Below are positions 22,890-24,479 of a stretch of 64,000 nt of DNA, one piece after another. The notes under the pieces were generated by a model, which worked only from the letters and a program-made list of their open reading frames with translations, was not told where the DNA came from and did no database searches. Within the stretch, counting starts at the first letter, position 1; every line of letters starts with the position of its first letter. The position numbers and the translations under genes were made by a program. The DNA comes from a virus: IMG/VR virus record IMGVR_UViG_3300030333_002885, positions 1 through 64,000 of that record. One strand, written 5' to 3'.

Positions 22890-23653
22890 CAAAGATCCTT
22901 GTTACTGGTCATAAGGGATTCATAGGCAGTTATGTCTTCAATCACCTTAGACATGATGCAGGTTATGGATACCTAGTTGATGGTATGGATTTCCCCGATG
23001 ATGTCGGGGATTTTCAGTCTGAGATTAGTATGTTTGAAAAACCATATGATTATGTCATACATCTCGCAGCATTTGCTAACATCAGAGGCAGTTTAGATAA
23101 CCCAGATGTATTCTGGGAGAATAATGTAGAGAAGTCTAAACCTATCTTTGAATATTGTAGGAGATATAATGTCAGACTACTCTATGCTAGTTCAGCACAG
23201 GTAGAGGAGTGGTGGCAGAATCCTTATGGTATTACCAAGAAGGTTAATGAACTACAAGCACCACCTAATAGTGTAGGAATGAGGTTCCAGACTGTTTATG
23301 GTGAGAACAGTAGGTCTGATATGTTATTCAGAATGCTACAGGATAAGACTGCTAAGTATATTACTAATCATAAGAGAGACTGGATCCATGTTAAGGATGT
23401 TGCTAGAGCAATTTGTTACCTAATGTCTAGTACATATACTGGACACATAGATGTAGGAACAGGTGAGACTATAACAGTCAGAGAATTAGCAGAAGCATTT
23501 GGTCAGGCAAATCTACCAGTCAAGGAGAACACACCAGGTGAGAGAGATGTCACATGTGCTGACACTACTGCCTTGCGTGAACTCGGTTGGTTTCCAAGGG
23601 AAAAAGTTTTAGACTGTATTCCTGAGGGAAAACCGAACTCTCGTTTCAAATAA
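22886..23653 (+). CDS. NAD-dependent sugar epimerase/dehydratase (extended SDR)
   Basis: A Rossmann enzyme of 255 residues with TGHKGFIGS at 7-15 and Tyr114-x3-Lys118 in NPYGITKK. The DWIHVKDVARA and DVGTGETITVRELAEAF blocks are typical for nucleotide-sugar epimerases. It is shorter than bacterial members (about 310), mostly in the substrate half. The substrate is unknown; it stands away from the sugar cluster. A GC-rich hairpin lies inside its coding sequence at 22992. A terminator follows directly. Confidence 0.8.
   Translation: MTKILVTGHKGFIGSYVFNHLRHDAGYGYLVDGMDFPDDVGDFQSEISMFEKPYDYVIHLAAFANIRGSLDNPDVFWENNVEKSKPIFEYCRRYNVRLLYASSAQVEEWWQNPYGITKKVNELQAPPNSVGMRFQTVYGENSRSDMLFRMLQDKTAKYITNHKRDWIHVKDVARAICYLMSSTYTGHIDVGTGETITVRELAEAFGQANLPVKENTPGERDVTCADTTALRELGWFPREKVLDCIPEGKPNSRFK
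22992..23014 (+). other. Hairpin with T-run inside the epimerase gene
   Basis: TCCCCGA (22992-22998) pairs with TCGGGGA (23004-23010) around TGATG, followed by TTTT. It has terminator form but lies in coding sequence, about 105 bases after the start. It could be an attenuator or a chance result of the encoded FPDDVGDF. Confidence 0.3.
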
Positions 23654-23659
23654 TCGGGA

Positions 23660-23681
23660 AAAAAAATTCGGGAATTTTTTT
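23660..23681 (+). terminator. AT-rich terminator after the epimerase gene
   Basis: AAAAAAATT pairs with AATTTTTTT around a CGGG loop. The flanks (TCGGGAAAA upstream, ACAGGATTT downstream) match those of the terminator at 10049-10095. Confidence 0.65.
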
Positions 23682-23701
23682 GAGCCACAGGATTTCAAAA
23701 A

Positions 23702-23717
23702 TGTAACAGTTGTTACA
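23702..23717. promoter_or_regulatory. Inverted repeat, possible operator
   Basis: TGTAAC and GTTACA form a perfect inverted repeat with a four-base centre, 27 bases upstream of a TATAAT box at 23745. Its place fits a binding site for a dimeric regulator. No regulator is identified. Confidence 0.35.
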
Positions 23718-23744
23718 GTTCTGGTCTTATACATAGTAATGTGT

Positions 23745-23750
23745 TATAAT
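23745..23750 (+). promoter_or_regulatory. -10 box TATAAT ahead of the candidate riboswitch
   Basis: A perfect TATAAT stands seven bases before the start of the candidate RNA element. The -35 region (TGGTCT, 23722-23727) is weak, so an activator may be needed. RNA starting near 23757 would begin exactly with the riboswitch fold. Confidence 0.55.
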
Positions 23751-23756
23751 GCACAT

Positions 23757-23803
23757 ATCGTTCAGTCCCAACAGGGACCGCAAGTAAGCCGACTCGGAAC
23801 GGG
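23757..23803 (+). ncRNA. Candidate downstream-peptide (glutamine-II) riboswitch
   Basis: CGTTC (23759-23763) pairs with GAACG (23797-23801) as the closing helix. GTCCC (23765-23769) pairs with GGGAC (23774-23778) as an inner hairpin. CGCAAGTAAG and CCGACTCGG follow. This layout and the CGTTCA, G(G/C)AAGTA and GGAACG blocks match the glutamine-II riboswitch as I remember it, apart from one base in the GGAAGTA core. The family is known from cyanobacteria and typically precedes very short ORFs, as here. It would bind glutamine and thus sense nitrogen state. A covariance-model match would settle it. Confidence 0.6.
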
Positions 23804-23817
23804 TTATCGTTCATCCC

Positions 23818-23982
23818 ATGTTTCATCTAGCAGCAATAGCAGCAACCTTTTCTTGCATCGATGCTCAAATGTTGATCGATAAGATCAATGAGTTTAAGAT
23901 TGAAGAGGAAACACGAGCTGAGATGATCAGCGTAGTGTTAGACGAAACACCTCATTGTGAGTGGGACGCAAAAGCCGACTGA
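23818..23982 (+). CDS. 54-residue peptide downstream of the riboswitch
   Basis: This ORF begins 15 bases after the candidate glutamine riboswitch. It has a mildly hydrophobic start (FHLAAIAATFSCIDAQML), a charged helix (DKINEFKIEEETRAEMI) and the end PHCEWDAKAD. It may be the downstream peptide after which the riboswitch class is named. I believe similar short proteins occur in other T4-like cyanophages. The first segment could be a weak export signal or just an amphipathic helix. Function unknown. Confidence 0.6.
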   Translation: MFHLAAIAATFSCIDAQMLIDKINEFKIEEETRAEMISVVLDETPHCEWDAKAD

Positions 23983-24000
23983 AGGAACGGGTCTAATCCA
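23971..24000 (+). other. Second riboswitch-like 3' half
   Basis: GCCGACT followed by GAAGGAACGGG nearly repeats the 3' half of the element at 23757 and matches the glutamine-II GAAGGAACG block exactly. It overlaps the stop codon of the 54-residue ORF. Its possible 5' partner, CGTTCATCCCA at 23809-23819, lies before that ORF. This may be a remnant, a coincidence, or an unusual element with an ORF in its loop. Confidence 0.3.
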
Positions 24001-24020
24001 CCCTACCTAAGGTAACCAAA

Positions 24021-24164
24021 ATGGCAAAAGTCACTTATCGTGGTGTCGAGTACGACACTGAAGAGTACAACGCAAAAATTCTCGATGAGAATGCAAGGCG
24101 TAACAGACACGATCTAATGTATCGTGGACTCAAGGTAAAAAGTGCTGCAATTCCTTGCAGTTAA
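24021..24164 (+). CDS. DUF4278-like small protein, 47 aa
   Basis: VTYRGVEYD near the start and MYRGLKV near the end fit the paired YRG motifs of DUF4278, a short protein family of cyanobacteria and their phages. It has no membrane segment. It follows the second riboswitch-like sequence and precedes a strong terminator, so it is the last gene of this short transcript. Function unknown; nitrogen or light stress responses are possible only by context. Confidence 0.65.
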   Translation: MAKVTYRGVEYDTEEYNAKILDENARRNRHDLMYRGLKVKSAAIPCS

Positions 24165-24191
24165 ACTAGCAAAACCTGTGCATAGTAAAAG

Positions 24192-24217
24192 GAGGGGTAG
24201 ACACCCCTCTTTTTTTA
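24192..24217 (+). terminator. Terminator closing the small-ORF unit
   Basis: GAGGGGT (24192-24198) pairs with ACCCCTC (24203-24209) around AGAC, followed by eight T. Confidence 0.88.
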
Positions 24218-24226
24218 TACTATAAT
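24198..24226 (+). promoter_or_regulatory. Host-type promoter overlapping the terminator
   Basis: TAGACA (24198-24203, five of six to consensus) and TATAAT (24221-24226) are 17 bases apart. The -35 box sits in the terminator loop. A GGAGG ribosome site and the ATG at 24246 follow. It should drive the early run from 24246 to thyX. Confidence 0.7.
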
Positions 24227-24245
24227 ATCCAAAACGGAGGATCTT

Positions 24246-24479
24246 ATGTTACACATGCGAGAACAACTCCTTAGAGCAGTATTAGCACATGCTCAAGGTG
24301 AAATTGCTAAACATAGAGCAAATGTGGAAGTTTATCTAGAACATCCTGCAGGTATCGGAGAGCATTCAGATATTACTGAAGCAATTCAAGTTGAACTTGA
24401 TAAGATTGCTAGGTATGATGATCAAGTTGAAGTTATAAACAAATATTTTAGATCACCAAAAGAAACTTTAAATGGTTAA
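24246..24479 (+). CDS. Conserved cyanophage helical protein, 77 aa
   Basis: The ATG is preceded by GGAGG with five bases of spacing and by a strong promoter. The sequence is helical (MREQLLRAVLAHAQGEIAKHRANVEVYL, then a second charged helix) with the segment PAGIGEHSDI between. I associate this pattern with a short conserved protein of T4-like cyanophages without known function. First gene of an early operon. Confidence 0.7.
   Translation: MLHMREQLLRAVLAHAQGEIAKHRANVEVYLEHPAGIGEHSDITEAIQVELDKIARYDDQVEVINKYFRSPKETLNG

Follow-up and report, generated by a model that had tools for sequence, protein, structure and literature searches.

An open reading frame nested in the loop of a tandem glutamine-type riboswitch aptamer in ocean cyanophages

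Riboswitches are usually viewed as leaders that precede a gene; at the locus described here, as in hundreds of marine virus contigs, a gene lies inside the sensor. The window, that is, the whole stretch of 64,000 nucleotides of viral DNA that was analysed, had been read in a first-pass annotation as carrying a −10 box and a candidate glutamine-II riboswitch in the downstream-peptide layout, followed by a 54-residue open reading frame (ORF) and a DUF4278-like protein. All the elements named there, the P1 and P2 helices, the AAGTAAG core and the 54-codon ORF, are found in the sequence. The layout proved to be another one: host loci have a single aptamer directly before the DUF4278 ORF, whereas the window has two in tandem, and the 54-codon ORF (ORF-A) lies not downstream of the riboswitch but inside the second aptamer, which had been missed. 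The architecture is almost certainly that of two back-to-back glutamine-type aptamers of ocean cyanophages, the P2 loop of the second accommodating the whole of ORF-A. The features, all on the + strand, are as follows.

23728..23735, + strand: TATACATA, candidate T4-late-type promoter motif, read from the sequence
23740..23755, + strand: P0 hairpin TGTGT-TATAAT-GCACA, directly 5' of aptamer 1, stem conserved across loci
23759..23801, + strand: aptamer 1, compact (RF01739 33.9 bits, RF01704 24.3 bits)
23759-23763 CGTTC and 23797-23801 GAACG, + strand: P1 of aptamer 1, read from the sequence
23765-23769 GTCCC and 23774-23778 GGGAC, + strand: P2 of aptamer 1, read from the sequence
23779-23795, + strand: core of aptamer 1, CGCAAGTAAGCCGACTC, with AAGTAAG at 23782-23788
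23802..23807, + strand: GGTTAT, inter-aptamer spacer and loop of the alternative hairpin GAACG(1)/CGTTC(2)
23808..23818, + strand: 5' half of aptamer 2, CGTTCATCCC, just before ORF-A, kept in 68/68 loci anchored on ORF-B
23808-23812 CGTTC and 23814-23818 TCCCA, + strand: 5' strands of P1 and P2 of aptamer 2, the last A being the A of the ORF-A ATG
23818..23982, + strand: ORF-A, 54 codons, phrog_504, inside the aptamer 2 P2 loop
23962..23989, + strand: 3' half of aptamer 2, TGGGACGCAAAAGCCGACTGAAGGAACGG, recognized by stop position, P2 covariation and frozen codons
23962-23966 TGGGA and 23985-23989 GAACG, + strand: 3' strands of P2 and P1 of aptamer 2
23967-23983, + strand: core of aptamer 2, CGCAAAAGCCGACTGAA, including the ORF-A stop TGA at 23980-23982
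24021..24164, + strand: ORF-B, 47 codons, DUF4278-like (PF14105, phrog_5049)
24192..24216, + strand: stem-loop GAGGGGTAGACACCCCTC resembling a terminator, with seven T after it, read from the sequence, closing the transcription unit (the scan lists this stem-loop on the − strand only)

Aptamer 2 begins six bases after aptamer 1 and is split. Its two halves flank ORF-A and overlap both ends of it, the 3' half covering the last codons and the stop, so that the entire ORF falls within the P2 hairpin loop. The same split organization is seen in P-SSM2, P-HM2, P-RSM1, ACG-2014b and other phages, and P-TIM68 and S-PM2 harbour two complete, compact tandem aptamers at this place. Two aptamers in one leader constitute a tandem riboswitch, and Rfam matches both of them in compact loci, where the ORF-less aptamer 2 reaches up to 38.1 bits with RF01739; in ORF-bearing loci it matches aptamer 1 only.

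The assignment of aptamer 1 to the glutamine superfamily rests on covariance scores. A covariance search like that proposed in the first-pass annotation (cmscan, 701 nt) does return both families at the site, RF01739 with 33.9 bits (E 1.8e-5) and RF01704 with 24.3 bits (E 9e-4), each under its gathering score of 35 and 33 bits, respectively, which is why Rfam at default settings finds nothing in the 64 kb window. Equivalent loci, found at this position in other phages, attain 35.1–39.6 bits with RF01739 and, in some cases, 33–39.3 bits with RF01704, the best score of a phage aptamer 1 with the latter being 39.3 bits (L255). As these homologous loci clear the threshold for one family or the other, the window aptamer is regarded as a real member of the superfamily, and the glutamine-type call made from the raw sequence is upheld. 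The label 'glutamine-II' fares less well: the type I family scores higher, and in the window alignment five of the eight pairs of the RF01704 3' stem, the pseudoknot partner (CCAGG/CCUGG), are non-standard. P1 (CGUUC/GAACG) and a P2 stem, as in RF01739, are present in both window aptamers. The type I loop-E signature, AGUA plus GAA around P3, is incomplete: aptamer 1 has AAGUA without GAA, and aptamer 2 has GAA only, keeping GAAGGAACG without GUA. Judged by these motifs, aptamer 1 of the window is intermediate between types I and II and no clean member of glutamine-II.

How general the arrangement is was assessed in two samples obtained independently of each other, by pattern scans of viral contigs and by a protein search with ORF-B; the contigs are mostly metagenomic, and their cyanophage origin rests on the isolates. 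In the sample found through ORF-B, aptamer 2 (CGTTCA...GGAACG) is present in all 68 distinct loci whose upstream sequence is long enough, 42 of them compact and 26 ORF-bearing, and every one of the 26 ORFs stops 4 nt before GGAACG. Pooling yields 295 distinct tandem loci, all with an inter-aptamer spacer of 3–6 nt: aptamer 2 holds a nested ORF in 213 and is compact, with a tiny loop, in 80, and a requirement for CGCA in the core removed 2 of the 295. The stop lies exactly within the aptamer 2 core in 200 of the 213. A nested ORF is found in aptamer 1 as well in 64 of the pooled loci (for instance L004 1293-1518 and L195 807-1029); they are of a different family (phrog_6471 in P-HM2, a phage with nested ORFs in both aptamers), and most of them end at the UAA of CGCAAG-UAA-GCC. 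Among 15 isolate genomes, ORF-A (phrog_504) occurs once each in 13, always in the loop of aptamer 2, and the two that lack it, P-TIM68 and S-PM2, are the two with a compact aptamer 2. A filled site and an empty one can be compared directly in L115 (CCTC-ATG...TTTGAGG) and L050 (CCTC-TT-TGAGG), which share 83% identity across 702 nt downstream. No nested ORF was seen in the readable host type-II loci. A scan of 84,980 genomes with the 3'-half pattern returned three contigs, two of which are short contigs from metagenome-assembled genomes (MAGs) that look like phage DNA; one of the three may be the phage contig behind L056. Two loci from MAGs labelled Dehalococcoidia and Acidimicrobiia (L134, L135) carry the cyanophage cassette and are therefore probably misbinned phage DNA.

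Several loci depart from the common pattern. Other small, apparently unrelated ORFs occupy the aptamer 2 loop of L314, L317, L010, L340 and L093, those of L314 and L010 starting with apparent signal peptides, and aptamer 2 of L076 holds an ORF that resembles the aptamer 1 type. An apparent second set of aptamer pieces lies close to the first in L096 and L032. As to genomic surroundings, many isolates (L191-L199) have the cassette flanked by nrdB and talC; it precedes thyX in the window, S-PM2, P-SSM2 and P-TIM68, with phoH farther along in the window, S-PM2 and P-TIM68. A manA RNA (RF01745) is located ∼0.7–1.5 kb downstream of the cassette in L221 (2305-2491) and L257 (2228-2327).

The nested ORF has the marks of a coding sequence. 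ORF-A matches the phrog_504 profile with 43 bits (E 5.7e-11), the median dN/dS of its body is 0.22 across 216 pairs, and most variation resides at third codon positions. The proteins begin with a short hydrophobic segment and share two cysteines and a pair of predicted helices; the AlphaFold model (mean pLDDT 82) is a two-helix hairpin with helices at 13–25 and 30–43. On this comparative evidence ORF-A is a genuine protein gene. It has no match in Pfam or NCBIfam, and no Shine-Dalgarno sequence is evident before it. A host origin was considered and set aside: phrog_504 is found in one of 101 host-family genomes, with a weak match (17 bits).

The same bases appear to be selected as RNA. In aptamer 2, 97.3% of P2 cells are paired in register, compared with at most 64% when one strand is slid by one to four bases, and the contiguous P2 pairs number 675, whereas 5000 partner shuffles average 563 (sd 6.9) and never exceed 591. 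This excess persists within start-offset classes. Common ancestry is only in part accounted for by the shuffles, a concern lessened by keeping one locus for each of 30 ORF clusters at 40% identity, which leaves 164 pairs against 124.5 (maximum 147 in 5000 shuffles). Codon usage offers no explanation for the covariation, because one P2 strand is 5' noncoding and the other is coding; L340, for example, has GATTATG/CATAATC where most loci have TCCCA/TGGGA. In both length classes the last P2 base is typically the A of the ATG. At the other end of the gene, the tail codons GAC GCA and GAC are frozen at synonymous sites: the final Asp codon is GAC in 195 ORFs and GAT in 2, compared with 142 GAC and 423 GAT for the remaining Asp of the same ORFs. 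Since the 3'-half patterns behind the first loci fix GACGCA, the codons were counted again in the sample anchored on ORF-B, where GAC, GCA and GAC recur in 18/18, the script there requiring CGCA in the core. The predicted ORF-A tail is of low confidence (pLDDT 51), which fits a constraint on the RNA and not on the protein. Between the two ends, predicted P2 closure is 0.71 for native ORFs, 0.29 with a dinucleotide-shuffled interior and 0.47 after within-gene synonymous permutation (p 1e-8), and the folding energy of the ORF has a z of −2.9 relative to synonymous permutations; control genes on these contigs give −0.94 (p 9e-14). No conserved helix was found inside ORF-A, RNAalifold conserving P1 and P2 only; selection thus seems to act on compaction and not on one specific fold. 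Taken as covariation, codon choice and modelled folding, the evidence indicates selection on aptamer 2 as a folded structure that spans the entire ORF. Covariation was also suspected by eye in a hairpin immediately following aptamer 2, but its 59% pairing was no improvement on the 57% of shuffled sequence, and it was dropped.

Downstream, ORF-B is DUF4278-like and probably the true homolog of the host downstream peptide, with 24.0 bits to PF14105 (E 4.9e-5; below the gathering score of 25.3), 26.0 bits for its P-TIM68 counterpart and an E of 3.1e-21 to phrog_5049. It follows the aptamers in 146 loci scanned for aptamers and, by construction, in all ORF-B-anchored loci. Upstream, TATAAT does stand at 23745-23750, where a −10 box had been proposed; it is located in the loop of the P0 hairpin, and a scan of 23600-24300 for −35/−10 hexamers 16–18 nt apart found no sigma-70 promoter at 23745. 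A P0 stem of at least 6 bp is present in 216 of 270 loci compared with 111 of 810 shuffles, with arms that differ yet remain complementary; the window stem has 5 bp, one of them G-T. In most loci this hairpin ends 0–5 nt before aptamer 1. At the position of TATACATA, other loci among the 270 have CTAAATA, CTATATA or CATAAATA. As CTAAATA and CTATATA resemble T4-type late promoters and lie upstream of P0, the transcript may start with the P0 hairpin. The cassette as a whole is likely to be a small autonomous phage RNA, composed of 5' hairpin, aptamer 1, aptamer 2 with ORF-A in its P2 loop, ORF-B and the terminator-like hairpin.

How such an RNA might switch can be approached from the sequence and from thermodynamic models that contain no ligand. 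All P1 strands are identical, and GAACG of aptamer 1 precedes CGUUC of aptamer 2 by 3–6 nt. In the ligand-free ensemble the hairpin between these two strands has a probability of 0.77 in ORF-bearing loci, 0.81 in compact ones and 0.67 in the window, and either P1 stays below 0.1. As the hairpin draws a strand from each aptamer, the two should open and close jointly; as ORF-A lies within the aptamer 2 hairpin, its translation and the folding of the aptamer should be mutually exclusive. In the absence of ligand, pairing of GAACG(1) with CGUUC(2) would leave both aptamers open and let ribosomes enter ORF-A; by terminating inside the aptamer 2 core, these would keep the aptamer from refolding. Binding of the ligand, most likely glutamine, would close P1 and P2 of aptamer 2 and lock the ORF-A start codon. 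The bound fold costs ∼9 kcal/mol before ligand and tertiary contacts are counted. In models of 14 loci the start is mostly paired in both states and slightly less accessible in the bound one (0.24 vs 0.30, p 1e-4), a small change, from which we would tentatively expect the ligand to lower ORF-A. Exclusion between ribosome and ligand on aptamer 2 with this sign is a model that has somewhat less than even odds. The broader reading, to which we assign a probability of roughly 0.6, is that the aptamer loop is a whole gene with its start atop the closing helix and its stop in the binding core, that ribosome and metabolite compete for it, that the coding sequence has been shaped to hold the sensor, and that both tandem aptamers can be used in this way, with different genes.

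The strongest competitor, though rather unlikely, is an ON switch of the host kind in which both aptamers control ORF-B only and ORF-A is a passenger tolerated by the P2 loop. Many RNA hairpin loops do tolerate insertions, the same ORF-B often follows a compact aptamer 2 (42/68), ORF-B follows in the 146 aptamer-scanned loci, and in hosts the type-2 glutamine riboswitches that precede DUF4278 genes act as ON switches, raising these genes at high glutamine (PMC6316151, PMC6698751). Under the exclusion model too, this host precedent suggests that ORF-B might be raised by glutamine. An ATG whose A ends P2, a stop in the core and a coding sequence selected for folding are, however, more than passive tolerance would leave, and the idea that the aptamer hides the ORF-B ribosome site was rejected, as the modelled accessibility of the site is alike in the two folds (0.45 and 0.46).

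The ligand is most likely glutamine. With half of the loop-E signature missing from each aptamer, ligand or affinity may differ, and both aptamers score between types I and II, as members of a variant class sensing another metabolite (glutamate, asparagine or a phage-induced compound, for example) might do. Such a class is improbable: CGUUCA, CGCA and GGAACG are invariant and common to host glutamine aptamers, and several loci exceed the Rfam cut-off of either glutamine family. Least credible is the idea that the aptamer halves persist as homologous recombination sites swapping small leader-bearing ORFs, which the matching flanks of L115 and L050, the apparently unrelated loop ORFs (L314, L317, L010 and L340 among them) and the aptamer-1-type-like ORF of L076 would suit, since recombination needs identity and not compensatory change, whereas P2 stays paired while its sequence shifts and the synonymous structure within the ORF is selected; exchange may act in addition.

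The cassette offers a directly testable case of translation and sensing on the same bases, with synonymous sites selected for riboswitch folding. Cyanophage infection would be linked to a nitrogen signal of the host, glutamine, and to a homolog of a domain of IF17, the factor that inactivates glutamine synthetase. DUF4278 corresponds to the N-terminal portion of IF17, and a glutamine aptamer precedes the coding region of gifB/IF17 in Synechocystis and of DUF4278 genes in marine picocyanobacteria (PMC6316151). In host cyanobacteria a single type-II aptamer, scoring up to 75 bits, immediately precedes an ORF with TYRG (DUF4278). In contrast to the gifB/IF17 system, phage ORF-B has the DUF4278 part only, and the phage adds a second aptamer and ORF-A. 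With glutamine-II RNAs (RF01704) the phage aptamers share CGCA after P2 and a DUF4278 gene downstream; they differ in that the 3' pseudoknot of the window is mostly unformed, and hosts have a single aptamer with no nested ORF. With glutamine-I (glnA motif, RF01739) they share P1 CGUUC/GAACG, the P2 hairpin and AGUA (aptamer 1) or GAAGGAACG (aptamer 2); unlike it, they have half a loop-E each, a tandem spacer of 3–6 nt and an ORF in P2.

Tandem glnA RNAs have already been noted (PMC2864571), and glutamine riboswitches are on record in the phages S-CREM1 (PMC9964418) and Melnitz, Mosig and AG-345-P14 (PMC9004378; see also PMC9602691). The aptamers of PMC9964418 and PMC9004378 belong to the same superfamily, and the accessible sections of these reports make no mention of a tandem, a split aptamer or an ORF within one. 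Within the literature searched, no description of a riboswitch aptamer that contains an ORF was found. The supplement of PMC2864571 deals with a conserved peptide, whose sequence, to judge from host loci, would be LTYRG.

A split aptamer escapes standard RNA searches, and nested genes may hide likewise in other aptamer families. A parallel is provided by group I and II introns, which carry ORFs in peripheral loops: in both cases a functional RNA, when folded, holds a protein gene in one of its loops. The introns are ribozymes with intron-encoded enzymes, whereas the phage RNA holds a gene of 50–70 residues in what is probably a metabolite aptamer, and it differs from them in that the start and stop codons are built into the aptamer itself.
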